Of a stretch of DNA of 64,000 nt, positions 5,708 to 47,507 are shown piece after piece; position 1 is the first letter of the stretch; each line of letters begins with the position of its first letter. The position numbers were made by a program, and so were the translations under genes. The notes beneath the pieces were generated by a model. It worked only from the letters and a program-made list of their open reading frames with translations. It was not told the DNA's origin and made no database searches. The DNA comes from Strigamia acuminata (Eukaryota > Arthropoda > Chilopoda > Geophilomorpha > Linotaeniidae), in contig OX442315.1 of NCBI GenBank assembly GCA_949358305.1, positions 16,642,427-16,706,426 on the forward strand, in the 5' to 3' direction.

Positions 5708-6152
5708 TGTAATGAGCTCAAATTACTGTGGAGAATATTAACAATAAAACTAAACTCATTGATGCCGTGCCAGGACTTATACAAATACTTCACAAATAAC
5801 TCAATTTTAACTCAAGCTTCAAGTTAAACACTAAGAAAAATAATGACTCTATTATTTCTCAATAAAAAGGCTGATTTATTCAAACTTAGAATAAACACTA
5901 AATCAAATACAAGATATTAAAATACGGATATTATTTTGTGATAAAATGATAAATTAGACGACTGAAGAAATAATTTACTAAAAGAAATATAATTAAAAGC
6001 AAAGGAAAACGATAAAGAATCCAGTCGATTCGACGACTCCACTTCTCGGGAACGCCGAACGCTTGGATTCGCTTCACTCGACGCTCGGCTCGGCCTCGGC
6101 GTTTTTTCAATACGGACTCAATTCCGTTCCAACTACTTCCTCGTGACTCGTT

Positions 6153-6166
6153 CGGGCTCAATCCCG
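6153..6166 (-). other. Dispersed hairpin 1 (LTR)
   Basis: Minus strand CGGG-ATTGAG-CCCG: 4-bp stem, hexaloop of the AWTRWG family. It is repeated in the other LTR at 20074-20087. Confidence 0.75.
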
Positions 6167-6691
6167 CTCTCTTCGTCCTCTCCAGGTCGCAACGTCGTCG
6201 TCGCGGCGTCGTTGCGGCTGATTCCGCCTAACAATCTCTCACACTCGCGCTCACTTCGCTTCGTTGCGAGTGAGAAATCTCAGTCCAACAATGGCTGTTG
6301 GCCGAGAATAGAAATCCCTCCAAACAATACTTGTTTGGCAAGATGAAAATCCCACTGTCACTAACTGAAGTAACAGCAAGAAGTATCTCACAAATTGCTC
6401 CGGCAATTTGCAAGACTGAGTCCAAATACTCTGGCAATCTTTCACTAATCAGCTTGTAGAATGGTGTTTTCTCAGGAAGATTTTTGGTGACTGGTTGCTC
6501 TCAAAGTAAGTTTCAAACTGAGGAGTTTTTCTGCTCCTCACAGGAAGTGTTTCCTGCTCCGGGAGGTTGCGGGCTGGTTTCCTTGGCGACCACCCACAAT
6601 TCCTCCCACCCTGCCTACCTCCCTTTATCTAGACAGGAAATCATAAAAAATATAAAATAAAATAAAACAATCTCCAATTTAATATTTTATT

Positions 6692-6707
6692 TCGGGCTCA
6701 TTCCCGA
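6692..6707 (-). other. Dispersed hairpin 2 (LTR)
   Basis: Minus strand TCGGG-AATGAG-CCCGA: 5-bp stem, consensus loop. It is repeated at 20613-20628, about 31 bases from the U3 start. Confidence 0.8.
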
Positions 6708-6738
6708 CACTTCATTAGTGACCACTAGGGTCACTACA

Positions 6739-6752
6739 CCTCCCCTCTTTTT
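6739..6752 (-). other. Terminal polypurine tract
   Basis: The minus strand reads AAAAAGAGGGGAGG, immediately followed by the 3' LTR. Position and composition are those of the plus-strand primer of LTR elements. Confidence 0.92.
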
Positions 6753-6783
6753 AGGAAGGTTCTCCGATTTCTTCCTTCACTTC

Positions 6784-9700
6784 TCATTTCTCGATTCGGA
6801 AAACTGACTCCGGAGTGGGAGCTTCGCTTTCGGAAACCGAAAATTTTGGCAGATGCTGGGTTGGTCCCGAGGTGGCGCCATTATTGACATGGAGCCAGAC
6901 TTCTTTGATGAACTTAGTCCTCGGGAATACTCGGTCATAGTCGATATCATATTTTTCGCGGGATCCGGTGGGTGGTCTCCGCACTGCAACTAGCCGTTGA
7001 TGCTGAATTATACGTTTTGGCTCTCTAACAGCATTCTCGAGCCACTTCAATGCCTCATGGCATAACGTCGCATTATAAATAAGTAGAGTTCGCGCATATT
7101 CGGGGAATCTCAGACCTGGGTACAACTGTTTTATTTTCCTGTAGTCTTGGTTTGAATTCCTTTTCGCCCCTTTAGTGGCTGCCGAACTTCTGCCAGACGC
7201 TGTTTTTTGCGAGCTTCCACTAGCTCTATTTAAGGGCTCATTCCCTTCGACATCAAACATCTCGGTATCTGTAGTCAATTTTAACTCGACATCGGATTCT
7301 GGAGCTATGGCTTTTTTGGTTGGCTGGTGGCTCGGCGTGGCAGTCATAAAGACCGTGGGCACCGCCCCTTCCGCTGTTGGTGGGTCAGCTACCTGTTGCG
7401 CACACGTCCCAAATTTTCGTTGCAGTTGCAAACTCTGTCTTCTCAGAATCCATTCGCCCCGCAATCTTAACATGCACTGCCCCGACGTTTCTCCCGTTTT
7501 AAAAACTTCTCGTTCCAATTGGGCTCGAATGACAGGTGGGTCTCCCAATACTGTTTTCCAGCTATCGAGCAACTCGGGTGGGATGCCCATTGCTGACGTC
7601 CATAGGAAACTTGTGGCGATCAGCGATGCTTCGACCGCTTGGAAAACTCCTGGAAACAAAAGTCTTATTAATGCCACTGACATTTGCACTTCGAACCAAG
7701 CTAGCCATTCTTTGGTTCGCAGCTCGGTGGGTTGGGCGATGAAGGCTTGAGCACATCTCCGTCGTTCATTTAGTGATTCTGCTAATTGGGCTTGCTGATA
7801 CTCGTCCATCGTCGGGGTCAGAAGTCCTTGGTTACATAACGGAAATTTCAAGTACATCGTCCACAGCTGTCGATAGTATTTATCGAAATCTTCAGCTAAT
7901 TTGACTGACGGGTCTATTGTGTACATCACGGTGGCTACTGATGGAATTGGCAGTGATAAGTCCGTTTGGGGAATTGGTTCCGTAATTGGTTGCAAGTGAG
8001 GATGAGGCACTCCCAAGGCGGCACTCGGCGTAGCTTTTGGTTGTACCTTCCTTGGATCTCGCATCCTTGGACGCAGTATTCGCGATGGTCCTTTTTTCCG
8101 CGCTGGTTCCCTTGCCCTTTTCTCCCATGCCTGGGCTAAGGCCTCGTCAAGAGTCGGCAACTCTCGGCAGCTGGAAATCTCCGGTGATGACACTCGCGGC
8201 GTTGGTGTTGGTGGGCACGTGGTTGGAGTCCAGGTAATAGGAGTATGCGTACTCTGTGGTGGTGTCTTTGGCGTCTGGTCCGGTCTTGGAGGGGTGGCCG
8301 GCGGTGGTTTCTGCACTTCCTGCTGCCTTGGCGGGGTAGTAGGTGGCGTTCGTGGCCCTCTTTTGCTGGTTTCACCTCCTTGTCGTTTTTCAGTATCGTG
8401 TGTGGCTGTCGCTGTTGGCTCCCGTTCCTCCAAAATGCGAACAGTCGTTTCAGCCAATTGCTGCTCTTCCTCCGAATCAGGCGATGGCGAACGTTGACAC
8501 TCGTCCATTACCACGTATTGATCTAGCTCCATCTCGTGTGCCGTCAAATACTCGTCCGACGAACTCCTGCGAATTTGCACCTGTAGTGTCTCCTCTTTAT
8601 TTGCCGAAATTGTCACTTTTCTCGCTGGGCGCATTTCTGAATAGCGGTGTGACGACCGTGGGCGTTTCTTCGCCCGCTCAACTCGGTTTCCTTCGGCTGA
8701 CGGACGCTTTTCTGTTGCTCGTTGGTGTCTAGGTACGTATTCTCGATCCGCCGTTTCGTGTCGCCTCGAATTCCTTTTCGGACTCATTTCCGAGCTTCGT
8801 TGCTGTCTCTTTACTTCCCTCGGTGAATCTTTGTCCGTTCGATTTAATCTTTTCTCCATTTGAGGTTGACGAGGGAAATATTGTTGTCTCGGACTCTTAC
8901 TCCTTCGTCGGGGACTTTCTCTTCTATCTCGACTTTGACATCTTCCCGTTTGGTGTTTTTCTAGTGTCGAACTTCGGTTCTCTCTTTGGCTTTCTCTCGG
9001 ACTTATTTCCGCACTTCTGTACTCTTTTCGCCTAGATCGGAATTCCCTGGTATGATATTTTGGGCTGATTCTTCGGGGAGGAGTTTTCCTTTTGGGTCTC
9101 TCACTCCTGGAGTAACGGAGGGCTCCTCGTGATCTGGCTTCTCTTCCTCGCCGTCTGGTTTCCTCTTCTTCCGATCTGACACATTTCAGAAACTCCACTT
9201 CCTCGTGTAATTCCTTCACCGTTTCTTCTGCCGCCTGCTCTAATGCTGCCTCCCACTCGTCCTGCTCCTGCCGCTGTTGTTTGGCGTAGACGAGCGGTCC
9301 AAAATCCTTGGCTTGCGGCTCACCTTCTAAATTGAGCGGTGTGATGTTTTGGCCAATGAGTCCCGTCATATGGAGTTGGTGCATCTTGTACTGACTCTTT
9401 ATGAAGTATGGCGGCTCTTTATCTAACTCCGGGGAAGGCAATAAGGCCTGAGCTTCGAGGTAAGCTGTTTTCTCCTCCATATATTTAGCCGCTACTTCTG
9501 GTGCTCCGGCTTTCAATTTTGCCATCACCTCTTCCACGAATTTAAATTTGTTTGTCGCAGGATTCTTGTATATTTTGAGATCGGCTGCTTCCTCCTCCTC
9601 TATCGGATATTCGTCCCCTATCATCTGGTTCCAAATTGGGCCATGTGTGTCCTCTGTAATTGGGATCTGTCTCAAAACTTCGTGGAAACATGTTTTGAAT

Positions 9701-9882
9701 CCTTTGAATAATCGTTTCGTCGTTCCCCAAAATCTTTGAATTGCTGTTGTGAAGGCTTTGCGTGCTTGAAATGCTGTATAACCTCTCTCAACGAATTCTC
9801 TCTTGTATCTATATGGAATTCTCCCTCGATGGATATTCCTTGGCAACCTAGCCGCTCTCGAAATTCTTCCCCACGACGCCAT
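6784..9882 (-). CDS. ORF3, SR/RE-rich protein in the env position; function unknown
   Basis: This intact 1,032-residue frame lies between the spacer and the 3' polypurine tract, where env sits in errantiviruses. I see no signal peptide, membrane anchor, furin-type site or fusion-peptide organisation, so it is not a recognisable envelope protein. Residues 1-220 are a helical, acidic/basic globular region starting MASWGR. Residues about 230-430 are strongly Arg-, Ser- and Glu-rich with many RS, SR and SPR dipeptides. Residues about 490-600 are Pro- and Thr-rich. Residues about 640-860 form a second helical domain with several Trp and a hydrophobic LIRLLFPG segment, followed by a C-terminal domain to residue 1032. 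It could be a nucleic-acid-binding or Gag-like accessory protein. Four dispersed hairpins lie within its coding sequence. Confidence 0.8.
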   Translation of the reverse strand: MASWGRISRAARLPRNIHRGRIPYRYKREFVERGYTAFQARKAFTTAIQRFWGTTKRLFKGFKTCFHEVLRQIPITEDTHGPIWNQMIGDEYPIEEEEAADLKIYKNPATNKFKFVEEVMAKLKAGAPEVAAKYMEEKTAYLEAQALLPSPELDKEPPYFIKSQYKMHQLHMTGLIGQNITPLNLEGEPQAKDFGPLVYAKQQRQEQDEWEAALEQAAEETVKELHEEVEFLKCVRSEEEETRRRGREARSRGALRYSRSERPKRKTPPRRISPKYHTREFRSRRKEYRSAEISPRESQRENRSSTLEKHQTGRCQSRDRRESPRRRSKSPRQQYFPRQPQMEKRLNRTDKDSPREVKRQQRSSEMSPKRNSRRHETADREYVPRHQRATEKRPSAEGNRVERAKKRPRSSHRYSEMRPARKVTISANKEETLQVQIRRSSSDEYLTAHEMELDQYVVMDECQRSPSPDSEEEQQLAETTVRILEEREPTATATHDTEKRQGGETSKRGPRTPPTTPPRQQEVQKPPPATPPRPDQTPKTPPQSTHTPITWTPTTCPPTPTPRVSSPEISSCRELPTLDEALAQAWEKRAREPARKKGPSRILRPRMRDPRKVQPKATPSAALGVPHPHLQPITEPIPQTDLSLPIPSVATVMYTIDPSVKLAEDFDKYYRQLWTMYLKFPLCNQGLLTPTMDEYQQAQLAESLNERRRCAQAFIAQPTELRTKEWLAWFEVQMSVALIRLLFPGVFQAVEASLIATSFLWTSAMGIPPELLDSWKTVLGDPPVIRAQLEREVFKTGETSGQCMLRLRGEWILRRQSLQLQRKFGTCAQQVADPPTAEGAVPTVFMTATPSHQPTKKAIAPESDVELKLTTDTEMFDVEGNEPLNRASGSSQKTASGRSSAATKGAKRNSNQDYRKIKQLYPGLRFPEYARTLLIYNATLCHEALKWLENAVREPKRIIQHQRLVAVRRPPTGSREKYDIDYDRVFPRTKFIKEVWLHVNNGATSGPTQHLPKFSVSESEAPTPESVFRIEK
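7232..7247 (-). other. Dispersed hairpin 3 (ORF3)
   Basis: Minus strand AAGGG-AATGAG-CCCTT: 5-bp stem. The loop starts at codon position 1 (Asn-Glu). Confidence 0.8.
8778..8793 (-). other. Dispersed hairpin 4 (ORF3)
   Basis: Minus strand TCGGA-AATGAG-TCCGA: 5-bp stem. The loop starts at codon position 3, a different phase from the copy at 7232-7247. Confidence 0.8.
8998..9011 (-). other. Dispersed hairpin 5 (ORF3)
   Basis: Minus strand CGGA-AATAAG-TCCG: 4-bp stem. The loop starts at codon position 3. Confidence 0.75.
9175..9190 (-). other. Dispersed hairpin 6 (ORF3)
   Basis: Minus strand TCTGA-AATGTG-TCAGA: 5-bp stem. The loop starts at codon position 2, so all three phases are used within ORF3. 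Confidence 0.8.
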
Positions 9883-9894
9883 GGCTTCTTGGGT

Positions 9895-9900
9895 CTGTAT
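9895..9900 (-). promoter_or_regulatory. Candidate 3' splice site for an ORF3 subgenomic mRNA
   Basis: The minus strand reads ATACAG ending at 9895, after a T-rich stretch, and 12 nt before the ORF3 ATG (9882). That start codon itself sits in a strong GCCATGG context. By analogy with the spliced env mRNA of insect errantiviruses, this may be how ORF3 is expressed. I could not identify the partner donor. Confidence 0.45.
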
Positions 9901-10215
9901 AAAACATTATTAAATTCAATTTTCTCTCAAATTCATTGTATTTTATCTTTCTCTGATGTGTGTGTTATTTTTGCGTATTTATCTCGATTTTGAGTTTTAT
10001 TATTCTAAATTTTCTCACAAGATGGCGCTCCGTGCTAATTTTTTGTGATAGGAGTCCTTTTTATACCACTCTTTTGCAATTTTTGGCGAATAATTAGCAC
10101 TTTCGTCATATAAAACCAGTTATTTACGTGATAACTAATTTTATTTTAACTTATTTCGAGACATTCGACTCCTTTTCCTTTTAAATCGTGATTTCGCCGA
10201 ACTTGTCACGTTGTA

Positions 10216-10231
10216 ACGACATATTTCGTTC
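10216..10231 (-). other. Dispersed hairpin 7 (pol-ORF3 spacer)
   Basis: Minus strand AACGA-AATATG-TCGTT: 5-bp stem in non-coding sequence. Confidence 0.75.
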
Positions 10232-10310
10232 CGTCATTTCCACGAATACTTTAAGCACTTTCAAATAACACACCCGATGAGAGAAAATACTTCCTTATTC
10301 ATTTATATTT

Positions 10311-10324
10311 TCGACACATTTCGA
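10311..10324 (-). other. Dispersed hairpin 8 (pol-ORF3 spacer)
   Basis: Minus strand TCGA-AATGTG-TCGA: 4-bp stem in non-coding sequence. Confidence 0.7.
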
Positions 10325-10398
10325 TTTTTACTACCTCACTGTGGTCCCGTCTTTTCGGTGGTGGTGATTTCCGTGGTTCGAACATCTTGAGATGAACT

Positions 10399-10412
10399 TC
10401 CGCTTAATCGGA
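10399..10412 (-). other. Dispersed hairpin 9 (pol-ORF3 spacer)
   Basis: Minus strand TCCG-ATTAAG-CGGA: 4-bp stem in non-coding sequence. The stem differs from every other copy. Confidence 0.7.
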
Positions 10413-10626
10413 CCCTTCTTTCACTTGGCTGCACACTTTTTCTTCGTTTTTTGGTCGTTCTTCCCTCTTATTCTTACTGCCTTGTTGTTAAAATCCGGGA
10501 TGACTTTCTTAAACTTGCTATTGTTTTGATGTCAAGTTAACAAGTGAGATTCGCCTCGACCAATCACGTTCGAGCTGCGACGTCGTCCACTTCCGGACTC
10601 CCGAGTGACGTCGCTACCTTCTATTT

Positions 10627-13600
10627 TTAGAGGTAGTCTGGAGGCTTAATCCTCCCCCTATCTCGAAGTGAATATTTCTTCAAGATAGCTTTTTTCTTGA
10701 TTTTTCCTGGTTGTTTTTCACGCAAATCTTGATAAAATTTCTTTATTTTCTTCTTTTCTACCACTCCTCCCCTCTTTTTAGAAAAAGACGCAACTTGTTC
10801 ATCTGTTTCTAAACTTAAGTCCCGTGGAAAAAGTGGCAATCTTTCTTGCGTGTTGTCATTGGAATTTACATCCAACTCCTCGTCGCTCTCCAAATTGTTA
10901 TCCTTTTCACCGCTTCTTTGTTTACTTGAAACTTGAGAACTCACGCCTGCTGTGTCTGAACCTGACAAATCCTGTAATTCCAGTTGTTGTTGTGATGTTT
11001 GTGGATCCTGCAAACTTTGTGTGTTATCCAAAGTGTGAGATTCTTGTGCATCTTCTAAATTTTGCGAATCTTGCAAACTTTGTGTTTGTTTCAAAGTTTG
11101 TGATTCCGCTGAATTACTATTATTCATCCGACTCATTTCAGTGGTCTGCGAATTTTCTGTCTCCGTATTTTCTTGTGTTTCGGATGTTGTTGGCTCATCA
11201 AATAATGTATTAATTATTTTTCCATTCGGATTGCTCTGAGTTTGATCCTTTTCCCAAATTTCTTGATTAAATTCCGGGAAATAAGGTGATAATTCGGACA
11301 TGTGAATGGAGCGAAAGATCTTATTATCTTTTAGCCGTCGCAGCTTCACTGCTCCTCCTTGGTGGACTTGGATGATCACATATGGTCCGCTCCGCTTGTC
11401 GGATAATTTCGCCGAAATCCCTTGTGACGCTTTTGATAATGGGTGATCATCTTTCCATACCAAATCATTTGTTTTAAAGTCGTCAAACTTTTTATCCATC
11501 TTGTGATTTTGCACTCGTTCGCGCAAGTCGGTTATGTGCGCCATCATATGGTGATATGTATCTCTAATTATTTTCTCCAGTCGTTGGATGTAAATATGTG
11601 GCTTATTTGGGTCTATTTTTGCAATTCCATCCAAAATCCTTGGATCCCAAGGAATCCTAAATTCTCTACAGCAATTCAAGTATGCTGGAGAATAATCGCG
11701 GCCTGTTGTTGCCGTTGTGCGTATGCTAAACGCAATTTCTCTTAAATATGTGTCCCACCTTTTGTGAATATCTGTGAAAATTGACAAAATATACTTTAAA
11801 TCGCGGTTGGTCCTTTCTACCGTGTTGGCCTGCGGATGATATGGCGACGTAAATCGCGGAGTAATTTTGAATTTTCTACAGAATTCGTGGTATATTCGGG
11901 CCTTAAATTGCGGGCCGTTATCTGACACGATTCGGAGCGGGAATCCCCATCCCATACACGTGTTGTACAGACAATCCGCTATATCTTGTGCGACGGGGTC
12001 GGATAATGGGTAAAGTTCCGGCCATCTGGTGGCTATATCCAAAATTACTAAAATGTAATTGTTTCCTTCATCAGTTCTAATCAATGGCCCTACCAAATCT
12101 ATACTTAGACACTCAAAAGGTGCGTATGGGCCAATCTGTGCTGCTTCTACTCGTGTTTTAGTCCGAGGTTTACACGCCTGACACCGCGGACAGTGTTTAA
12201 TAAATCTGGTGGTGTCACGTTTGATTCCGTCCCAGGTATAAATCTGACGCATTCGATAAAGCGTCCTCGCAATTCCGCAATGGCTTGCGAGTGGGTGGCC
12301 GTGCATTTGCCATAACACTCGGAATCTTAGTGATCTCGGTATCACGACCTTCAGGGCTCGCGAATCCTCGCTTAAATCATCTGACAATGTTGGATGGTAT
12401 TTTAATAATAAATCCTCTTCTAACATGTGTTTAGTCGCCAAAATGCGATAATTCTTCTTTTGTAATGGTGTTGTTACGTAAGCTGGGAATTGTTCTGTCT
12501 CGAGGTAGTATCGCATTGATTGGCAATGGCGATCCTTTTTCTGATGCTCTATAATTTCTTCGCGTGTCGGAGGCATGCAGTCGGCTTGCTCCGTGACTTT
12601 TGCAATAAATGCTGTCACCATTTCGCATTTGGAAGTCGGCAAATATTGAACTTCTTTAATTTCCGGACTTAATTCCGACTCTTCTGCCGGCGCATTATGC
12701 ATGTAACTCCAATATGCCGTGACTTGCTCGTCTACTAATCGTTCTTCATCCGACTGAGGTTTTGGCAACTGATTCCAGTTACCCACGACCCATTTTCGTG
12801 GTTCTGTCGGGCAGTATTTTAAGTCACCGTCGGCTTCCCCCGTCTCTTCGTTGTCGCAGATGAGTTGAATTGGTGCTCTAGACAATGCGTCTGCTAAAGT
12901 GTTGGCAGTCCCCTTCAAATATTGGATTGTAAAATTATAAGACATCAATTCCATCTGCCAACGAGCAAGACGTCCAGCTGGCTCTTCCAGTCGCATCAAC
13001 CATTTTAGCGCCTCATGATCCGTCTGCACAACGAAACTTGTGAACTCCAAATATGGTCTAAATTTTCGGAGCGCCCAAATTACCGCCAAACATTCGAGAT
13101 CCGTGGCGCCGTAATTAAGTTCTGCCTGTTGCAGACATCTACTGAGGTACACACACGGTGACTCAATCATCTGCCCATCAATTTCTTTGATCTGCATCAA
13201 GGCAGCACCCAATCCTTTCTTACTCGCGTCTGTCCTTACGATGAATGGTTGGTGTAAATTTGGCAAGTGCATAGTTTTGGCGTCGGTCAGTAATTGCTTA
13301 ATGTTATCAAAAGCAACTTGGTGTACTTCCTCCCAAATAAATTCTATCCCCTTCTTCAGGAGTGGGCGTAGAGGTTCGGCCACCGTGGCCAAATTCTTGA
13401 GAAGTCTATGAAAAAAATTGACCATGCCAAAAAATCGTTGTAACTCTGTCAAATTTTTTGGCGCTGGAAATTCCTTTATGGCCGCTACTTTGGCTGGGTC
13501 TACGCTTAAGCCGTTGATTCCAAGTTTGTACCCTAGAAATTTTAGTTCCTTCCTGCAGAATTTTGACTTTGTTGGGTTTACATGCAATCCAGCTTTCTGT

Positions 13601-15948
13601 AATTTTCCTAAAACTGAATCTAGATGTTTCATGTGTTCTGCGTACGTTTTTGATACGATCACAATATCGTCAAGGTAGGCCCAAGCATATTTTCGGAATG
13701 CTTCGCCTAATACCTTTTCTATTAGTCGCTGAAAAGTGGTTGGCGCGTTGACCAGCCCGAAAGGCATGACGTTAAACATCAGTCTGCCTTGCGGACTCCA
13801 GAATGCTGTTTTCGGACGGTCTTCTGGTCTCAGATCTATTTGCCAGTATCCTTTTGTTAGATCAATGGTTGAAACCCATTGAAATTCGCCGAGCTCTCTT
13901 AAAATTTCTGTTATTGTCGGCATCTGGGGCGGGTCATACAAAGTGTGTTCATTCAGCGCTCTGTAATCAATACAGAGACGTGGCTCTGAACCTGGTCTCA
14001 TTACCAACACAATCCTTGTCGCATAATCGCCTTCTGCAGTTGTTACATAGCCCTTATCAATCATTTCTTGGCATAATGTCCGCAATATTTCCCTTTTTTG
14101 TGGATTCCAAGATTTAAAAGGAACCCTTATTGGTTTGTCCGTATCTAAATTGATGGTATGTTGTACCACATGAGTCTTGCCCGGGTTTTTACTCAAAATT
14201 TTCTCATATTTCCTCAATACATGCTCCAATTGTAAAGCTTCTGTTAATTGCAGTTTGGCTTCTTCTATCATGTCATGCAAGCCATTGCCAACTTTCAATC
14301 GTGCTTCAAATGCGCAAAAACTACTCTCTTTTCGAAATGTTTTTCGCAATGATTCTGGCTCTTCCAGTTTCTTCTGTTCATATTTATCCATGATGAATTG
14401 TGGCATATATGGTTGTGGCACGTCGATAGTGGAAATAAAGTTCCACTTGCCGTTGAGCGGGTTGGGCTGTATTTTCATTCGTTTCATGGCATCATTGCCA
14501 ACCAACATGAATTTCATGTCGTGTGGTAACACGAGGAAATACTGTTGCATCATTCCATGAGTCCAACGAATCATCATCCTTATTGTTCCCATTGGTTGCA
14601 CTTTTTTATCTGCTGTATTTACAGCCATATTGGCCTTGACGGGCCACACTTCTTTTTCCAAACCCATTGCCTGAATTAATGGCCATGAAACACAACTACG
14701 GTTGGCTCCTGAGTCTAGCATGGCAGCGATGGATCCTTGTTCTGTTTGGAGGTCTATTGTTGTCATCCCTTCCAAAACATCTTCTTCTGGCAATAATATA
14801 TTAAAAATTCTGATGCGTGGTCCTTCCGGCTCCAATGTTGTTAACTCTTTAAATAATGGATCCCATTCCACAGGCTCAGTTGGTGTATCTGTCATCCATG
14901 CTGCTAGTGATGGTGTTTCCTCATAGGTCTCTTTTACCTTTGCCCAAAAAATTGTTGCTTCATTTTCTTGTGTGATTTCCACATTTTTTAGGGCTTCCGT
15001 CACTTCTGCTGTGAAATAAGTTCTATTTGTTTCATAAATTTCTTTTATTTTTGGACAATTTTCCAACTCTACTGGTGGAAATTTTATTCCTACTATTTGT
15101 CCACATTCCATTTCGCAAATCATTTCTCCTCTTTTTGGCATTGTGCCAATTGCTTCTGGTGACGTGAGAGTTACTGGAATAGTTGTATTTTTTAGTGGTC
15201 CATTATCTTTCAGAATATTCTTTTTTGATGAAGTTTCAGCTTGTTCTGGCTTGGGATCCGTCACTGGTTTCTGTGTCGGATATCTCATCCCTACGACTTC
15301 GCCGTCTTCAAAGTTAAAAACTATTGTCCCTTTTCCACCTTCTAAAGTTCCAATCACTTTACGTGGTTTTTCAGCTAATTCTGATTGCACATATTCTCCA
15401 GTTTTGGGGTCTTTGATGAATCGTGCTCCCTTAGGTGTTTGTGCTGTTGGTGGAGTTTCTTGGATATTTTCAGTCAAATTCTTGGGTTCCACTGATGTTT
15501 TCAATATTAATGAAGTCTCTGATACTTCCCCATCTAATGATCGGTCATTCTGTAAATTTCCACAATTTTCAGAATTTTCAGGCAGTGTGGTTGTCTGTAT
15601 GTTTTGCGAATTTTCAGAATTTTTCAGTGATTCCTTTGATTCTAATAATGTTTCTGTTATTAACAGCGTTTCTGTTATGGCTTCATGTATTGGCTGGACC
15701 TCCGATAATCCATCCGAATCTTGTACCATTTCAATTGTCAATTCTGATGTTTCTTCAACTGGTTGGGCTTGTAGCAGATTTTCCGAATTTTTTGTTGGCG
15801 CGAGCTCTACTGCTTTTATTGAGCCCGCGCGTTCAAGTTTTTTGTGATGCTTTCGGATAAGGAGTTTACAAGTTGTTCCATTTCTTCTGCAGACATTAAT
15901 CTTTTGGGATGTGGGCATTGCCGCGCCCAGTGTCCAATTTGTCCGCAA
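10627..15948 (-). CDS. pol: Pol polyprotein (protease, RT, RNase H, integrase), -1 frame relative to gag
   Basis: The frame is open for 1,773 codons and overlaps gag by 133 bases. The first Met (15948) is probably not used, since synthesis should enter by frameshift at 15843-15837. Domains in order are a Ser/Asn/Glu-rich N-terminus, retropepsin with an LDSGA active site (about residue 411), RT with YLDD (about 758-761), RNase H (TDAS near 905, later TDHEALKW), and integrase. The integrase has an HHCC zinc finger (about 1222-1262), a DDE core with SIDLVGP, SDNGPQF and NTVER, and a GPY/F module (KRSGPY). The C-terminal 200 residues are a Ser/Gln/Glu-rich tail with a basic end. No stop or frameshift breaks any domain, so the enzyme set looks functional. 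Confidence 0.96.
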   Translation of the reverse strand: MRTNWTLGAAMPTSQKINVCRRNGTTCKLLIRKHHKKLERAGSIKAVELAPTKNSENLLQAQPVEETSELTIEMVQDSDGLSEVQPIHEAITETLLITETLLESKESLKNSENSQNIQTTTLPENSENCGNLQNDRSLDGEVSETSLILKTSVEPKNLTENIQETPPTAQTPKGARFIKDPKTGEYVQSELAEKPRKVIGTLEGGKGTIVFNFEDGEVVGMRYPTQKPVTDPKPEQAETSSKKNILKDNGPLKNTTIPVTLTSPEAIGTMPKRGEMICEMECGQIVGIKFPPVELENCPKIKEIYETNRTYFTAEVTEALKNVEITQENEATIFWAKVKETYEETPSLAAWMTDTPTEPVEWDPLFKELTTLEPEGPRIRIFNILLPEEDVLEGMTTIDLQTEQGSIAAMLDSGANRSCVSWPLIQAMGLEKEVWPVKANMAVNTADKKVQPMGTIRMMIRWTHGMMQQYFLVLPHDMKFMLVGNDAMKRMKIQPNPLNGKWNFISTIDVPQPYMPQFIMDKYEQKKLEEPESLRKTFRKESSFCAFEARLKVGNGLHDMIEEAKLQLTEALQLEHVLRKYEKILSKNPGKTHVVQHTINLDTDKPIRVPFKSWNPQKREILRTLCQEMIDKGYVTTAEGDYATRIVLVMRPGSEPRLCIDYRALNEHTLYDPPQMPTITEILRELGEFQWVSTIDLTKGYWQIDLRPEDRPKTAFWSPQGRLMFNVMPFGLVNAPTTFQRLIEKVLGEAFRKYAWAYLDDIVIVSKTYAEHMKHLDSVLGKLQKAGLHVNPTKSKFCRKELKFLGYKLGINGLSVDPAKVAAIKEFPAPKNLTELQRFFGMVNFFHRLLKNLATVAEPLRPLLKKGIEFIWEEVHQVAFDNIKQLLTDAKTMHLPNLHQPFIVRTDASKKGLGAALMQIKEIDGQMIESPCVYLSRCLQQAELNYGATDLECLAVIWALRKFRPYLEFTSFVVQTDHEALKWLMRLEEPAGRLARWQMELMSYNFTIQYLKGTANTLADALSRAPIQLICDNEETGEADGDLKYCPTEPRKWVVGNWNQLPKPQSDEERLVDEQVTAYWSYMHNAPAEESELSPEIKEVQYLPTSKCEMVTAFIAKVTEQADCMPPTREEIIEHQKKDRHCQSMRYYLETEQFPAYVTTPLQKKNYRILATKHMLEEDLLLKYHPTLSDDLSEDSRALKVVIPRSLRFRVLWQMHGHPLASHCGIARTLYRMRQIYTWDGIKRDTTRFIKHCPRCQACKPRTKTRVEAAQIGPYAPFECLSIDLVGPLIRTDEGNNYILVILDIATRWPELYPLSDPVAQDIADCLYNTCMGWGFPLRIVSDNGPQFKARIYHEFCRKFKITPRFTSPYHPQANTVERTNRDLKYILSIFTDIHKRWDTYLREIAFSIRTTATTGRDYSPAYLNCCREFRIPWDPRILDGIAKIDPNKPHIYIQRLEKIIRDTYHHMMAHITDLRERVQNHKMDKKFDDFKTNDLVWKDDHPLSKASQGISAKLSDKRSGPYVIIQVHQGGAVKLRRLKDNKIFRSIHMSELSPYFPEFNQEIWEKDQTQSNPNGKIINTLFDEPTTSETQENTETENSQTTEMSRMNNSNSAESQTLKQTQSLQDSQNLEDAQESHTLDNTQSLQDPQTSQQQLELQDLSGSDTAGVSSQVSSKQRSGEKDNNLESDEELDVNSNDNTQERLPLFPRDLSLETDEQVASFSKKRGGVVEKKKIKKFYQDLREKQPGKIKKKAILKKYSLRDRGRIKPPDYL
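10640..10655 (-). other. Dispersed hairpin 10 (pol 3' end)
   Basis: Minus strand GGAGG-ATTAAG-CCTCC: 5-bp stem covering the codons for Arg-Ile-Lys-Pro-Pro just before the pol stop. Confidence 0.78.
10766..10781 (-). other. Internal polypurine tract, exact 16-nt copy of the terminal PPT
   Basis: The minus strand reads CTAAAAAGAGGGGAGG, identical to 6739-6754 next to the 3' LTR. It lies inside the pol C-terminal tail, encoding part of KKRGG. It could prime plus-strand synthesis like the central PPT of lentiviruses; this role is inferred. Confidence 0.6.
11128..11141 (-). other. Dispersed hairpin, wobble variant (pol tail)
   Basis: Minus strand CTGA-AATGAG-TCGG: consensus loop with a 4-bp stem containing one G-U pair. 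Confidence 0.5.
11314..11331 (-). other. Dispersed hairpin 11 (pol, downstream of GPY/F)
   Basis: Minus strand AAAGAT-AATAAG-ATCTTT: 6-bp stem, the longest of the hexaloop family, encoding Lys-Asp-Asn-Lys-Ile-Phe. Confidence 0.82.
12664..12677 (-). other. Dispersed hairpin 12 (pol)
   Basis: Minus strand CGGA-ATTAAG-TCCG: 4-bp stem between RNase H and integrase. Confidence 0.72.
13655..13670 (-). other. Dispersed hairpin 13 (RT catalytic motif)
   Basis: Minus strand ACGAT-ATTGTG-ATCGT: 5-bp stem. Its 5' arm contains the last two bases of the first and the whole second Asp codon of YLDD, and the loop encodes Ile-Val. Confidence 0.75.
13993..14006 (-). other. Dispersed hairpin 14 (RT)
   Basis: Minus strand TGGT-AATGAG-ACCA: 4-bp stem, encoding Val-Met-Arg-Pro. 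Confidence 0.72.
14122..14135 (-). other. Dispersed hairpin 15 (RT N-terminal side)
   Basis: Minus strand AACC-AATAAG-GGTT: 4-bp stem. Confidence 0.72.
15798..15843 (-). promoter_or_regulatory. Programmed -1 ribosomal frameshift signal (gag to pol)
   Basis: The heptamer A AAA AAC (15843 to 15837) is in register with gag codons. It is followed by a 6-nt spacer (15836-15831). A 10-bp stem then pairs 15830-15821 with 15807-15798, with one G-U pair and a 13-nt loop. The gag stop lies within the loop region. Pol is in the -1 frame relative to gag, exactly as the signal requires. Confidence 0.92.
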
Positions 15949-18900
15949 TTATGGCACGGTGCATTTTCTGGAGTCAACTTTATTTGGTTGGCCTTATTGC
16001 CATCATCAGGGTTACTTGGAGTTGAAGTCTGTTCAGTTTTTTCTCCAATTTGCGATTTATTATTTTCTTTTTTCAAATTAAAATCAACTGAAAATGGTTT
16101 TGGAAGGAAGGACGTATTTCCTTTCATCTGCGGTTGCAAGCTCGTCTGCTGTGGTTGCCTCGCCTGCATTGGAGGCTTATATTTTGTTATTGCTGGGTTA
16201 TTTTTTGTGAATAACACACTTGCCGCATCCATTAATTTGTCGACTTCTTCTTCTGTATATTCGGCCAGCATTATCTGGGTATCTCCTATTGACTCGCTGG
16301 ATTCACCTGGGTATTGTGTCCATTTGACATTTGGTCGCATTGGTATTCGTGGCTGTGGATAAGGAGGATGTCCACTCTCTTGTTTTTTGGTGGAGGTTTC
16401 CTCTCGTAACAGCGAGAATTGAGAACGCGGGCGCATCATTTTTGCACCAGCACGAGTGTAGTCTGACTGGTGTCGCTGTCTTTCATCTCGTGCTCTCTGC
16501 TCTTCTATCGGGATGTCTGAAGCGTACCGGTCGTCAATGTACATCTGGTGGTTTCGGATGAATTGTGATAATTTTTCGAAGGAACTGGCCATCGGTGCAT
16601 CCACCATTCGCAATACTTGCTCGGAGAAAGGTGTCAGGCCATTCCTGAATTTTCTGTCTTTGTCAAAATCGCTGATATGATATGGGAGTTGGGTGAACAA
16701 ATCTTCTGTACGTCTTAAGTACGTGCGAATGTCTTCTCCCAACGTCTGTTTGTGATTATCCCAATATTTTATCATCATGGCGTTGGACTCTCCATATTCC
16801 TTCATAAAAGCTTTCACAAATTCGTCCCAGTGTGAGAAGTTACTTTTCCGCAACCAATTTGTTGCACTTCCAACCAACATTTTCGGAATTAATTTTTTCA
16901 AAGTTACGTCCGGGTCCATCTCGTGATTTATGACTAGGTGCATAACTTCATCTAGGAATTGGGTACCAGCCTGCCAACCTCCATCAAACATATCGGGAGT
17001 AATTCGGTCCCATTTGATTTGATGAGATGGGGTGTAATGGTGAGTCCAATTGCTCGAACAATATTTCCGAATTATTTTCCGCAGCATCTCGTCCATTTCC
17101 TGTGATTTCGAGGGGATTTGAGACAATCGTTCATCGATTTGTCTTGAGATAATTTCTTCCAATTCCTCTGTGCTTTTCGGTAATGTGCGTGGGTTAGTTG
17201 GCGGTGGATCTCTATCGTCTTGTCGAAAATTTCCTCCACCTCTCCTTTCCTCTCGTGATCTGGAAAAATTAGGCTCGTCTCGACGAAATTGGTCAGAGTG
17301 AGAATATTTTCGATCATATTCCTCTCCTCTTGGCGGAGGGCTGGAATGTGATCGTCTGTCGTCTCGATACGAATCATCACGTCGTCCCTCCGAATAATCA
17401 CGTTGTCGATACGAATTATCTCGTCGATCCTGTGAGTTGTCACGACGTCCTTGCGATTCTCTTTGGGTATAACCTTCATACCAATAGGAGCCCCTTTGCC
17501 GTCGTGATTCGTCTTGATAATCAGATTGTTGACGTGAATTATTTCTTTCCATTGACTCATTTTGATTGTAATAGTCTTGTCTGGTCGCTTCGTGATTACT
17601 TTGCTGACGTGTTCCGTCGTTGAAACGAGCAGCACCTTGTTGGTGTGTCTCTTGTTGATAACGCGACACATTTCGCGGTTCTACTTCATATTGTGATCGT
17701 GTCTCGTCGGAAAATCGTACTTCCGTAGGTGGGCGAATTCCTCGTTGATTACACGACTCATTTCGTGGATCTACATTTTCCGGTTGCTGGGAATATTTGC
17801 CTTGTAGATAATCATTGTAATCCCTAACTTTCGTATAACTGGCTTGTCCAGTTGCTTCATCATGTCCAGTCGCAGCATTTTGGTTGCTGCTTTTATCTTG
17901 CTCTGGAACTTCTTGATCGTGTTGAAACTTTTGTTTTTCATTTTCGCGACTTATTTCGCGTTGCCTATCTCTTTCATTAGCTGCTGACAAGTGTTCAACT
18001 GCTTCTTCCAACGTATATTTACGATGGTAACAAGGATCGTTCTCATTTATTGGTTTTTCTGTGTAAACGTCAAATGATTTTCCTTCATTTTTTGTAGAAG
18101 ATACTCTGACATTTTCAGTTTCCATCTTTTTGGGCTTATCCCAAATCTGCGGGTCTGCTGGATCTAATCCTGTTACTTTACCTTGTTTTTTGTCTGTTGC
18201 AGCTGATTGATTTGTTAGATGCTGACGATTTCTTTGATCAATTATGTCCAATACGTTTGGATTTTTGGCTGGTGAAATTGAAGCACGTTTGGAATCTCTT
18301 TTTTCATCCATTTCACCTTTCCTTTTTAGAGAGTTCCTGGACGATTCTGGTGACAAATTCACCACTTCTGGCCGATGAGGCGGAATATTGCTTGGCACTT
18401 GATACCGACATTGTGCAAGGTACTTAAGCTCTTCGTTTTCTTGACGGGCTCTTTCCGCTGCTTCTTGTGCTTCAAGAGCAGCCTGACGAAGGTAATGAAT
18501 TTCCCTGCTCTCCGCCGACTCCATAGCCCTTTGCTTTGCCAACAATTCTTGTTTTTCAGTTTCTAAACGGACTTTTTCCGCCTCTATCTTCCGATTTTCC
18601 TCCAAAATGGCTTCACGCTCTGCTACCGCTTGTGCTTTTCGTTGCGCACGCAACTCCTTCTGTTCAGTTTCTTGACGGAGTCGCTCTGCCGCCAGTTTAT
18701 TCCTCATGGTGCGCATTTCTGCTTCAAGTCGGTCTTTGGTAGCGCGAATTTCTGCATCTAATTGATCCTTCTTGGCGCGAATATCTTCATCTGTTGTTTT
18801 CTTGGCCAATTCTGCCTCGAATTTCGCTTGTTTGGCGTGGCGTTCCTCTAACTTGAGCCGTTTCAACATCTGGAATTCTTCGGAATGTGCCAGTTGCAGT

Positions 18901-19505
18901 CGCCTTGCTCGATCGGCCATTGCTGCCGTTATTTGTGCTACGTCTTCATCCGAAAGTTGCACACCTTCCTCATACTGTTGGTGACGCTCCTGGAGACTGT
19001 CTTCCATCTCTTTCATGACATCTGCGATGCGTTGGCGAGCTCTCGCTAGTTTATGGCGGGTTGGGGAGTTTTCCCCTGAACTTTCCGCCTCATCGCGGGC
19101 ACGTCCTGACGCTTGTTGCTTGTAGGCTCGCACTAGTCGGCCACGCTTCCTTGCTACGGCAATGACTTGCTCCAGTGTCATATTAGAGAGGTCTATTTTG
19201 CTTGTTGGAGTTGAATCCACTGTGGCTGGCGTGTCGCCATGTTGCGACGAGGCTCCGGAGATACTTGATTTTCCAAGCAAATCTTGGGACTCCTCTCTCG
19301 TTTGTTTCAGCCAAAATTCCCCTTGCCGTTCAGGCGATACTTCCAGACGAAATTCCTTGCTCGTCATGGCCTGGGTGTCGTCTGCATGGTCCGACTCGGA
19401 CGATGATGAAGGATGCACATTGGCTGCTCCTGCGGTCCTTCCGCCTCGTGTGCGAGGTCCGCGGCCGTTTCCCCGTCCTCTCCTCGAATCTTGTGGCTGC
19501 GACAT
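15816..19505 (-). CDS. gag: Gag polyprotein, unusually large, with coiled coil and CCHC zinc knuckle
   Basis: This 1,229-residue frame is the first after the 5' LTR and primer site. Its start is 19505, 101 bases after the primer-binding site. Residues about 165-360 form a long, highly charged Glu/Lys/Arg/Ala coiled coil. Residues about 500-780 are hydrophilic and rich in Gln, Asn, Tyr, Arg and Asp, including degenerate RDxSY repeats near 678-725. Residues about 820-990 match the Retrotrans_gag core (capsid-like helices with spaced Trp, Phe and Leu). A single zinc knuckle C-x2-C-x4-H-x4-C lies near 1181-1197. The protein should assemble the particle and bind genomic RNA. Typical Gypsy Gags are 300-600 residues, so the N-terminal half is an extension. 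The last codons carry the slippery site leading into pol. Five dispersed hairpins fall within it, including a pentaloop variant. Confidence 0.93.
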   Translation of the reverse strand: MSQPQDSRRGRGNGRGPRTRGGRTAGAANVHPSSSSESDHADDTQAMTSKEFRLEVSPERQGEFWLKQTREESQDLLGKSSISGASSQHGDTPATVDSTPTSKIDLSNMTLEQVIAVARKRGRLVRAYKQQASGRARDEAESSGENSPTRHKLARARQRIADVMKEMEDSLQERHQQYEEGVQLSDEDVAQITAAMADRARRLQLAHSEEFQMLKRLKLEERHAKQAKFEAELAKKTTDEDIRAKKDQLDAEIRATKDRLEAEMRTMRNKLAAERLRQETEQKELRAQRKAQAVAEREAILEENRKIEAEKVRLETEKQELLAKQRAMESAESREIHYLRQAALEAQEAAERARQENEELKYLAQCRYQVPSNIPPHRPEVVNLSPESSRNSLKRKGEMDEKRDSKRASISPAKNPNVLDIIDQRNRQHLTNQSAATDKKQGKVTGLDPADPQIWDKPKKMETENVRVSSTKNEGKSFDVYTEKPINENDPCYHRKYTLEEAVEHLSAANERDRQREISRENEKQKFQHDQEVPEQDKSSNQNAATGHDEATGQASYTKVRDYNDYLQGKYSQQPENVDPRNESCNQRGIRPPTEVRFSDETRSQYEVEPRNVSRYQQETHQQGAARFNDGTRQQSNHEATRQDYYNQNESMERNNSRQQSDYQDESRRQRGSYWYEGYTQRESQGRRDNSQDRRDNSYRQRDYSEGRRDDSYRDDRRSHSSPPPRGEEYDRKYSHSDQFRRDEPNFSRSREERRGGGNFRQDDRDPPPTNPRTLPKSTEELEEIISRQIDERLSQIPSKSQEMDEMLRKIIRKYCSSNWTHHYTPSHQIKWDRITPDMFDGGWQAGTQFLDEVMHLVINHEMDPDVTLKKLIPKMLVGSATNWLRKSNFSHWDEFVKAFMKEYGESNAMMIKYWDNHKQTLGEDIRTYLRRTEDLFTQLPYHISDFDKDRKFRNGLTPFSEQVLRMVDAPMASSFEKLSQFIRNHQMYIDDRYASDIPIEEQRARDERQRHQSDYTRAGAKMMRPRSQFSLLREETSTKKQESGHPPYPQPRIPMRPNVKWTQYPGESSESIGDTQIMLAEYTEEEVDKLMDAASVLFTKNNPAITKYKPPMQARQPQQTSLQPQMKGNTSFLPKPFSVDFNLKKENNKSQIGEKTEQTSTPSNPDDGNKANQIKLTPENAPCHNCGQIGHWARQCPHPKRLMSAEEMEQLVNSLSESITKNLNARAQ
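15989..16002 (-). other. Dispersed hairpin 16 (gag, before the zinc knuckle)
   Basis: Minus strand TGGC-AATAAG-GCCA: 4-bp stem, encoding Gly-Asn-Lys-Ala. Confidence 0.72.
17662..17677 (-). other. Dispersed hairpin 17 (gag)
   Basis: Minus strand CGCGA-AATGTG-TCGCG: 5-bp stem. The loop starts at codon position 1. Confidence 0.8.
17752..17767 (-). other. Dispersed hairpin 18 (gag)
   Basis: Minus strand CACGA-AATGAG-TCGTG: 5-bp stem, 75 bases from the copy at 17662-17677, with a compensatory C-G to A-T change in the stem relative to that copy. Confidence 0.8.
17945..17960 (-). other. Dispersed hairpin 19 (gag)
   Basis: Minus strand CGCGA-AATAAG-TCGCG: 5-bp stem. The loop starts at codon position 3, unlike the two neighbouring gag copies. 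Confidence 0.8.
18129..18145 (-). other. Dispersed hairpin, pentaloop variant (gag)
   Basis: Minus strand TTTGGG-ATAAG-CCCAAA: 6-bp stem with a loop one base shorter than the family consensus. Confidence 0.5.
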
Positions 19506-19605
19506 CTCGTTTTAGTCACAGAAAAGAAGAAAGAAACAGAATACTCTATCACAAAATAACTTTTATCACACAAAATTGGTCCCTCAACTGAAGATAAGTT
19601 GTTAA

Positions 19606-19626
19606 GGTTCAAATAACGGGCCCCCA
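19606..19626 (-). other. Primer-binding site, tRNA-Pro-like with internal gap
   Basis: Two bases inside the 5' LTR, the minus strand reads TGGGGGC, which complements the acceptor end of tRNA-Pro including CCA. It ends ATTTGAACC, which complements the T-loop and T-stem of the same tRNA. The joining bases are about 4 nt shorter than in a continuous complement of animal tRNA-Pro. The tRNA sequence is from general knowledge, not from this window. Confidence 0.7.
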
Positions 19627-19628
19627 AG

Positions 19629-20659
19629 TGTAATGAGCTCAAATTACTGTGGAGAATATTAACAATAAAACTAAACTCATTGATGCCGTGCCAGGACTTA
19701 TACAAATACTTCACAAATAACTCAATTTTAACTCAAGCTTCAAGTTAAACACTAAGAAAAATAATGACTCTATTATTTCTCAATAAAAAGGCTGATTTAT
19801 TCAAACTTAGAATAAACACTAAATCAAATACAAGATATTAAAATACGGATATTATTTTGTGATAAAATGATAAATTAGACGACTGAAGAAATAATTTACT
19901 AAAAGAAATATAATTAAAAGCAAAGGAAAACGATAAAGAATCCAGTCGATTCGACGACTCCACTTCTCGGGAACGCCGAACGCTTGGATTCGCTTCACTC
20001 GACGCTCGGCTCGGCCTCGGCGTTTCTTCAATACGGACTCAATTCCGTTCCAACTACTTCCTCGTGACTCGTTCGGGCTCAATCCCGCTCTCTTCGTCCT
20101 CTCCAGGTCGCAACGTCGTCGTCGCGGCGTCGTTGCGGCTGATTCCGCCTAACAATCTCTCACACTCGCGCTCACTTCGCTTCGTTGCGAGTGAGAAATC
20201 TCAGTCCAACAATGGCTGTTGGCCGAGAATAGAAATCCCTCCAAACAATACTTGTTTGGCAAGATGAAAATCCCACTGTCACTAACTGAAGTAACAGCAA
20301 GAAGTATCTCACAAATTGCTCCGGCAATTTGCAAGACTGAGTCCAAATACTCTGGCAATCTTTCACTAATCAGCTTGTAGAATGGTGTTTTCTCAGGAAG
20401 ATTTTTGGTGACTGGTTGCTCTCAAAGTAAGTTTCAAACTGAGGAGTTTTTCTGCTCCTCACAGGAAGTGTTTCCTGCTCCGGGAGGTTGCGGGCTGGTT
20501 TCCTTGGCGACCACCCACAATTCCTCCCACCCTGCCTACCTCCCTTTATCTAGACAGGAAATCATAAAAAATATAAAATAAAATAAAACAATCTCCAATT
20601 TAATATTTTATTTCGGGCTCATTCCCGACACTTCATTAGTGACCACTAGGGTCACTACA
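19629..20659 (-). repeat. 5' LTR of the retrotransposon
   Basis: This is the promoter-side LTR, because the element is transcribed leftwards from here. It is essentially identical to 5708-6738 and carries the same two hairpins at 20074-20087 and 20613-20628. Downstream of it in element orientation come the primer-binding site and gag. Confidence 0.96.
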
Positions 20660-20663
20660 GTGT
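20660..20663. repeat. Target site duplication, right copy
   Basis: GTGT directly follows the LTR end and matches 5704-5707. Removing the element and one copy would restore a continuous empty site. Confidence 0.8.
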
Positions 20664-47100: not shown

Positions 47101-47490
47101 CAATTCGCGTGTCGTTCAAATGGGAGGGAGTGAAAGAATATAAGAGTATAAGACTACACAAAATGGTGTTTGATATGACGTTAGTGTTTGCAGCCTTTTT
47201 TTTTCATCTTTACTCAATTCCACAATAGATTTTTCTCTTTATCTGATTGCCTTGATGTTTCAGGCACGAGTCAAATATTTGAAGTGGAGGAATAAACCAA
47301 CATGAAACCCAACTCTTGGCTCTAGATAAAAAATCGATATTCGCACGGAATATTTTCCTTTTCATCTTCTACCTACTTTGATAAATTAAAAAAAAAATTA
47401 ATTTTTTTAAAAATTTTAATTTTATTAAAAAAAATTTAATTTCATAAAAATGTTAATTTTAATTTTTTTTTTTATTTTGTTATATTTTTC
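35117..47490. other. No gene recognised; probably upstream and 5' intron region of the LRR gene
   Basis: I see no coding exon. A 3' splice site at 47491-47492 implies at least one upstream untranslated exon of the following gene within or beyond this stretch, but I cannot locate it. Low-complexity T/A tracts occur near 35980-36010, 42078-42125 and 47390-47482. Confidence 0.4.
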
Positions 47491-47507
47491 AGGTGAGGTC
47501 TCGCACA

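Follow-up and report, generated by a model that had tools for sequence, protein, structure and literature searches.

Can the RNA of a retrotransposon be marked along its whole length by a repeated structure, and if so, what would read the mark? This question is raised by a window of 64,000 nucleotides (nt) of the centipede Strigamia acuminata (contig OX442315.1, positions 16,642,427 to 16,706,426 of the forward strand), by which the whole stretch analysed is meant. It holds a long terminal repeat (LTR) retrotransposon, called family A below, that runs on the minus strand over 5708..20659 from LTR to LTR; the LTR pair, found by blastn, measures 1031 bp and is 99.9% identical. In sense order the element consists of LTR, gag, pol, a 720-nt spacer, a third open reading frame (ORF3) and LTR. 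A sequence-only reading of the window had described, over 6153..20628, dispersed small hairpins whose stems differ and whose loop, A-[AT]-T-[AG]-[AT]-G (AWTRWG), is shared. Those limits proved too narrow for the element, which the LTR pair extends at both ends, and the hairpins themselves are confirmed as a real sense-strand set with a shared loop.

The hairpin set of family A

Counting perfect stems of at least 4 bp over the whole element, with one LTR counted, 20 of the 55 AWTRWG loops on the sense strand are stemmed and 12 of the 55 have stems of at least 5 bp. These figures are close to the 19 sites and about 50 loops counted by hand in the sequence-only reading, and the G-U variant that it listed is also present. 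Within 6153-20628 on the minus strand, LTR duplicates included, a perfect stem surrounds 22 of 58 loops (nine of 4 bp, twelve of 5 bp and one of 6 bp), in addition to the single G-U variant. The opposite orientation, said to give none in the loops checked, in fact gives one (1/27 on the antisense, or plus, strand), while the right flank (43,372 bp) is as free of hairpins as had been thought (0/154 and 0/121 on the two strands). The left flank gives 0/28 and 1/19; its single hairpin repeats, in the second LTR, the one at 20043, and falls there because the LTR reaches 5708.

The expectation by chance, 55/256 = 0.21, agrees with the earlier estimate of about 0.2, and permuting the right arms among the 55 sites gave a mean of 0.81 and a maximum of 7 in 20,000 trials. 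AWTRWG ranks first of 276,480 loop patterns of the same shape (three two-fold positions), and among all of those enumerated none that is disjoint from it reaches 7 stems in family A. The sequence-only reading had proposed a search of the host genome and a control with shuffled codons that keep the protein, and both bear it out. In 200 kb of background, taken from contig C3 as 20 stretches of 10 kb at even spacing and read on both strands (the stretches include pieces of families B and C, described below, and of other Gypsy elements), only 5 of 1062 loops are stemmed. The codon control was made analytically, as an exact calculation over synonymous codons with protein and loop fixed and with the codon usage of the element; it predicts 0.64 stems of at least 4 bp among the coding loops, where 14 of 41 are found (P 7.7e-20), and 0.34 stems of 5 bp, where 9 are found. 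Pairing is thus selected for beyond the protein code. The coding loops that bear hairpins lie in two codon phases in gag, two in pol and all three in ORF3, so that a shared protein motif is ruled out as their source, as had been argued before. A dispersed code of structure plus loop in the RNA, which protein, composition and chance do not explain, is strongly supported.

The hairpins, all on the minus strand, are found in every part of the element. The LTR holds three, at 20613..20628 (loop AATGAG, 5 bp; copy at 6692-6707), 20074..20087 (ATTGAG, 4 bp; copy at 6153-6166) and 20033..20048 (ATTGAG, 5 bp; copy at 6112-6127). Four lie in gag, at 17945..17960 (AATAAG, 5 bp), 17752..17767 (AATGAG, 5 bp), 17662..17677 (AATGTG, 5 bp) and 15989..16002 (AATAAG, 4 bp). 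In pol they stand at 14122..14135 (AATAAG, 4 bp), 13993..14006 (AATGAG, 4 bp), 13655..13670 (ATTGTG, 5 bp, on the YLDD motif of the reverse transcriptase, RT), 12664..12677 (ATTAAG, 4 bp), 11314..11331 (AATAAG, 6 bp) and, at the end of the gene, 10640..10655 (ATTAAG, 5 bp), with the G-U variant at 11128..11141 (AATGAG, at 11132-11137). The spacer between pol and ORF3 has them at 10399..10412 (ATTAAG, 4 bp), 10311..10324 (AATGTG, 4 bp) and 10215..10230 (AATATG, 5 bp), and ORF3 at 9175..9190 (AATGTG, 5 bp), 8998..9011 (AATAAG, 4 bp), 8778..8793 (AATGAG, 5 bp) and 7232..7247 (AATGAG, 5 bp). Stems fade beyond 5 bp. Of the 20 sites, 12 form pair 5, 16 have G-C as pair 2, and 15 have A-U or G-C as pair 1. 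The fading and the G-C second pair look as if a short stem presents the loop. The mean predicted pairing probability in a 120-nt context is 0.54 for the 20 sites; a comparison group of 80 further hexaloop hairpins from the element has a mean of 0.36.

Loops and sites in related families

Two further families from the same genome (237.5 Mb in 157 contigs) proved informative. They come from the evenly spaced sample of one contig, not picked for hairpins, in which three relatives among 20 stretches have a pol 52-55% identical to that of family A. Family B is L009 with L021 and L022, L007 being a 98.8% copy over 3.3 kb, and family C is L017 with L023. Loops were scanned without assuming that of family A, and a distinct loop came out best in each. 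In family B it is the hexaloop CCCARA on stems of 4 to 9 bp (log10 P -10.4, shifted-arm null -3.0), and in family C a pentaloop, with ACCKW as the best pattern (log10 P -11.0, null -3.2); duplicate contexts were removed in both, and without this removal the nulls reached -6.5 and -7.1. CC occupies loop positions 2-3 in 20 of the 31 distinct pentaloop hairpins of family C with stems of at least 5 bp, a post hoc description, the loop NCCNN having been fixed only after these hairpins were seen. The coding hairpins of family C with 5 bp (13/824) exceed the 1.38 expected under the codon model (P 2e-10), and here too there is selection for pairing beyond the protein code.

The loops are specific to their families. 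Counted on the sense strand in distinct contexts, AWTRWG is stemmed at 20/55 in A, 0/20 in B and 0/21 in C; CCCARA at 0/10, 7/24 and 0/13 (antisense B, 0/7); ACCKW at 0/34, 2/43 and 10/60; and NCCNN, with stems of at least 5 bp, at 1/663, 6/980 and 20/984 (antisense C, 0/660). Twelve other loci, picked for having no extended similarity to A, B or C (apart from a match of 65-79 amino acids in L001), gave on both strands 3/688, 1/155, 1/577 and 15/8462 for the four loops in the same order. One loop for all Gypsy elements is ruled out by these counts. A pair of hairpins stands in the LTR or terminally repeated stretch of each family, 40 nt apart in A (577/617), 49 in B (636/685) and 48 in C (3946/3994), about 420-570 nt ahead of the gag open frame. 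The Gag proteins of A and of B both have a CCHC knuckle. Inspection by eye shows no complementarity among the loops, which argues against kissing among copies.

Families B and C are close enough for their sites to be compared directly, Gag being 74% identical over 836 amino acids, pol 84-85% and ORF3 50%. At the first site of the terminal repeat the stem AATAATCG/CGATTATT is common to both families, and the loop is CCCAGA in B and ACCCA in C. At the second, 49 (B) or 48 (C) nt further on, B has GGAAC/GTTCC with CCCAAA and C has GAAAC/GTTTC with TCCCA, a stem difference that is a two-sided compensatory change, with the loop switched. Both have two hairpins in the spacer, 41 nt (B) and 38 nt (C) apart, which differ in stems and loops. 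Four of the eight listed sites of B (seven distinct, one being given in both copies) were aligned to C, two as hairpins with a C-type loop; of the 11 listed ACCKW sites of C, one of which (L017 9194) is outside the element, seven were aligned to B, and the loop of B is at none of them. The C site at L023 8053 is also a 4-bp hairpin in B, with the loop ACCTG. These alignments indicate that the two terminal-repeat sites are shared and that the coding sites mostly are not. At L017 ~1640-1660, which is homologous to the pol hairpin of B at L009 7362, family C instead forms a CTCG tetraloop on a GTTTC/GAAAC stem.

Nearer relatives of family A are numerous. Of 3958 first-look candidates in the genome, 101 were scored as matches of its RT, with 21 at 100% identity, 30 at 94-98%, 2 at 90% and 48 at 80-84%. 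Six (L030-L035) were chosen by RT identity and compared over 3-kb pieces that cover the end of pol, the spacer and part of ORF3. In such a piece AWTRWG hairpins number 8/12 in A, 4/13 in L030 (RT 96%) and 3/12 in L031 (RT 90%), the background identity being 58% between A and L030 and 57% between A and L031. The hairpin at 11314..11331 is kept in L030 (5 bp) and, with the loop AACAAG, in L031; that at 10640..10655 is present in L031 and broken in L030; that at 10215..10230 has 4 bp and the loop AATAAG in L031 and is broken in L030; and that at 10399..10412 is absent from both. Besides the stems that are kept in L030, two hairpins of A are broken there by a single uncompensated inner-stem difference, and the rest were not found, the alignment being gappy at two ORF3 sites. 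At two places without a hairpin in A, L030 in turn has AWTRWG hairpins and L031 has stem-loops with the loops AACAAG and GAGAAG. The hairpin at 14122..14135 is not kept in the 95% family.

Loops also change on kept stems. At 10311..10324 the relatives have the same stem with the loops ATTAAG and AATAAG, and a genome search in which the stem TCGA was fixed by the search pattern gave 13 copies of A type with the loop AATGTG, 9 copies of the 95% family with ATTAAG and 1 of the 90% family with AATAAG. These are the 23 of the 71 rows shown (119 matches) that lie in elements by position and context; the remaining rows shown look like simple repeats. The LTR hairpin 20613..20628 has 65 genomic places within 3 mismatches, 43 of them exact. 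One copy has CAGG/CCTG for CGGG/CCCG, a compensated change, with the loop AATAAG; the fourth pair is broken in two copies and is a wobble in one, which has the loop AATGAA, and in the remaining copies the differences fall beyond the stem. Among the matches listed of 219 at the YLDD site of RT, the 95% family keeps the stem and has ATAGTG as its loop, pairing in the 90% family involves wobbles, and in the 80-82% families the closing pair is broken.

Conservation of every hairpin of A in its relatives can therefore be rejected, stems being lost in several, and the coding sites thus turn over. The sequence-only reading had named uncompensated loss of pairing in related copies as evidence that would refute it, and such loss is seen at some sites and not at others. 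Its claim of covariation compared different sites within one element, which is not covariation proper; what can now be set beside it is the compensatory pair between B and C, the loop switch and the one compensated LTR copy of A. Two other observations concern the relatives. L033 (1-3001; RT 80% to A) has many strong short hairpins, with 12 hexaloop stems of 5 bp or longer over its 3 kb and some nesting in tetraloops, but no evident common loop. Three RT matches of equal score, at C9:4405789, 4425215 and 4444641, are spaced by exactly 19,426 bp, apparently as a tandem array of one family.

A possible reader of the loops

A free stem, a fixed loop, one strand and many copies together point to a factor that reads the loop and acts on RNA. 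As the same host proteins are available to all sibling families of a genome and their loops nevertheless differ, this reader is likelier to be element-encoded than to come from the host. Gag is preferred to ORF3 since the sites span the whole genomic RNA, since in all three families a pair of hairpins in the LTR precedes gag, and in view of the dispersed packaging-signal model discussed below. We infer, as four separate steps, that the reader is a protein, that the element encodes it, that it is Gag and that its purpose is packaging. The hairpins could then be sites in the genomic RNA at which Gag would recognise the letters of a loop displayed by a short stem, the sequence of which is nearly free. 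The dispersed copies might act jointly as packaging signals, by which Gag would tell its own RNA from the transcripts of the cell and of sibling families, and might help to nucleate and condense the RNA into the particle. Each family would have its own loop, and loop and reader would change together. We tentatively propose that the hairpins are dispersed packaging signals and that their reader is a protein of the element, Gag being the likeliest; this reading falls a little short of an even balance.

To our knowledge, how the Gag of LTR retrotransposons selects its own RNA is poorly defined. Retroviral packaging signals are classically upstream of gag and concentrated in the 5' leader, whereas the hairpins of family A recur along the element, in its LTR, gag, pol, spacer and ORF3. 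The model of dispersed packaging signals has so far been based on degenerate matches to loops in the genomes of viruses. Passages of Twarock, Bingham, Dykeman and Stockley (2018, PMC6281560) set out this model as one of stem-loops that share a loop motif and are read by the coat protein, give the apical-loop motif of MS2 as (x)xYA, and suggest dispersed packaging signals for Gag-like proteins too. Like the signals of single-stranded RNA viruses described in those passages, the set in family A consists of many scattered stem-loops with a common recognition motif, here beyond chance. It differs in that A is an LTR retrotransposon with sibling families that have different loops, known here from sequence alone, and in that statistics suffice to bring out its loop consensus and perfect stems. 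The hairpins also lie on the strand that would be packaged (20/55 against 1/27), packaging of the sense RNA being assumed. Retroviral 5' packaging signals, such as that of mouse mammary tumour virus (PMC8096270), consist of structured RNA near the 5' end to which Gag binds, and the two LTR hairpins that precede gag in each of the three families are similar in position.

Several observations weigh against packaging signals read by Gag. Predicted pairing in the 120-nt context is below 0.25 at 7 of the 20 sites of A. The coding hairpins of B are weak (3/16 against 0.47 expected, P 0.003), its remaining hairpins being in the terminal repeat and spacer, and the loop of C is somewhat frequent in B (NCCNN at 6/980, against 15/8462 in the host loci). 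Four families with RT 80-82% identical to that of A have AWTRWG hairpins at 1/10, 0/7, 0/8 and 0/13 (1/38 in the 3-kb pieces), no other clear loop code was found in the 3 kb each of L032-L035, and partial distant Gypsy elements give 1/79. Among the eight hairpins of A in the compared piece, L030 keeps two stems and L031 four (one with the loop AACAAG), and of the four copies listed whose RT protein is identical, one has lost the closing pair at YLDD. Finally, the Gag proteins of B and C are largely alike and yet the loops differ, ORF3 differing more, which suggests that few Gag residues set the specificity or that another protein reads the loop.

The ORF3 protein could be that other reader, the hairpins serving nuclear export, splicing choice or translation, in the manner of Rev or of a translational repressor, rather than packaging. 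Between B and C it is ORF3 that diverges most, as the loop does; by eye it is rich in basic residues, its C-terminal domain is common to A, B and C, and splice-donor-like sequences follow pol (AAGGTAG in A, L030 and L031, CAGGTAA in the spacer of B and C). Hairpins throughout gag, pol and ORF3 nevertheless exceed what an export or translation element needs, ORF3 has no known domain, and the structure model of its C-terminus is poor (predicted local distance difference test score, pLDDT, 55), and we consider this reader doubtful, though it is the foremost of the alternatives. A host RNA-binding protein, with a role in localisation, stability, translation or silencing, is less likely again; the families would have drifted to different host readers. 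Structured loop motifs are commonly read by host proteins, and in the iron-responsive element (CAGUGN) and the Smaug and Roquin sites the loop letters are fixed and the stem nearly free. Those sites occur as one or few per host mRNA; family A has about 20 per RNA, with different and family-specific loops. That loops differ among families within one genome, and that the sampled genomic background lacks such hairpins (5/1062), makes a host reader improbable.

Pairing of the loops with a family-specific RNA acting in trans (a small RNA, tRNA or snRNA) would suit short presented loops with fixed letters, as in RNA-RNA kissing, and the orientation bias; it is rendered quite improbable by the degeneracy of the loop of A at half its positions, by the lack of any Rfam family at threshold in the element and by the need for a partner that differs by family. 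Template switching by RT, which perfects small inverted repeats and so lets retroelements accumulate hairpins, is a mutational route that finds some support outside the motif, where family A exceeds a shifted control at loops of 5 (31 against 14.6) and of 7 (32 against 16.7), with no clear excess at loops of 4 (19/18.9), 6 (25/18.1) and 8 (18/19.1). It may add to the general excess of hairpins, but it leaves the fixed loop, single orientation and family specificity unexplained; it is contradicted for the loop-specific sets, and as their origin it is very unlikely. Chance, codon usage or multiple testing might be suspected, as the loop was fixed after the first dozen copies had been seen, and as the same statistic scores to 1e-11 at other loci and shifted-arm nulls to 1e-13 in one set. 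On inspection, however, the apparent loop sets in L020 and in five high-scoring other loci (L006, L013, L019, L003 and L028) are repeats with near-identical stems, while A scores 1e-23.7 with differing stems, as the best of the 276,480 patterns; arm permutation, pattern enumeration, genomic background and the protein-preserving codon model leave this explanation with practically no probability and rule it out as the source of the set.

A wider proposal can be made for this Ty3/Gypsy lineage, and we regard it as evenly balanced. The lineage may write a family-specific identity code of up to a couple of dozen hairpins with free stems, in which the loop (AWURWG, CCCARA or NCCNW) would be the password. 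A co-evolving element-encoded reader would separate the RNAs of siblings, and new families might arise by a switch of loop, even of loop length, on the same stems. A limited literature search gave no account of such family-specific hairpin loops in retrotransposons. The set matters in that it can be seen in the letters of the genome at very small P, and in that natural loop swaps between the close relatives B and C allow a direct test of the specificity of reader for loop between families. An element-encoded reader would mean discrimination of self from non-self among the transposons of one genome. A fixed loop on a free stem would then also be a simple rule by which other retroelements and RNA viruses can be searched.

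The element and its surroundings

The 5' LTR of family A occupies 19629..20659 and the 3' LTR 5708..6738, with one mismatch between them, both on the minus strand as are the open frames. The gag frame, taken from stop to stop, runs over 15816..19511 and has a CCHC zinc knuckle near its C-terminus (PF00098, E 6.3e-7); pol, at 10627..15948, encodes RT, RNase H and integrase, with a weak protease below the Pfam cut-off; and ORF3, of 1040 amino acids, lies at 6784..9906. The layout, with an LTR pair, gag and pol, and RT preceding integrase, is that of Ty3/Gypsy elements, which A also resembles in its knuckle and in the order RT, RNase H, integrase; it is unlike them in carrying the hairpin set and a third open frame. 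Identity of the RT region to the 120 matches listed of 963 is 34-44%, and those among them that have names and domains are pol proteins of the Gypsy type. In a single scan of viral contigs no relative of this RT was found. Comparison of Gag with solved structures gave one weak match (E 0.019), to a Gag polyprotein in the region of the knuckle, and for its residues 830-1230 no relative at E 0.001 was found among 3075 candidates sharing words with it.

Domain searches gave no Pfam family and no known domain in ORF3, the C-terminal ~110 amino acids of which are common to families B and C at 27-29% identity. A fragment akin to the ORF3 of B and C was seen at L002 3034-4529. The donor-like AAGGTAG lies just after pol, at about 10620 of the window and at sense positions 791 of L030 and 785 of L031, and CAGGTAA lies about 500 nt past pol (L009 8891 in B, L017 3190 in C); perhaps these sites reflect spliced expression near ORF3. 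A scan of 5600-20800 with Rfam gave no known RNA family at threshold and one match below it, to RT-3 RNA (22.1 against 40.5 bits). Beyond the element the window contains, at 47463-51718, a large chaoptin/artichoke-like leucine-rich repeat gene, the closest match of which is a chaoptin-like protein of the mite Leptotrombidium (49%), with other good matches in Halotydeus (44%) and a spiny lobster (45%).

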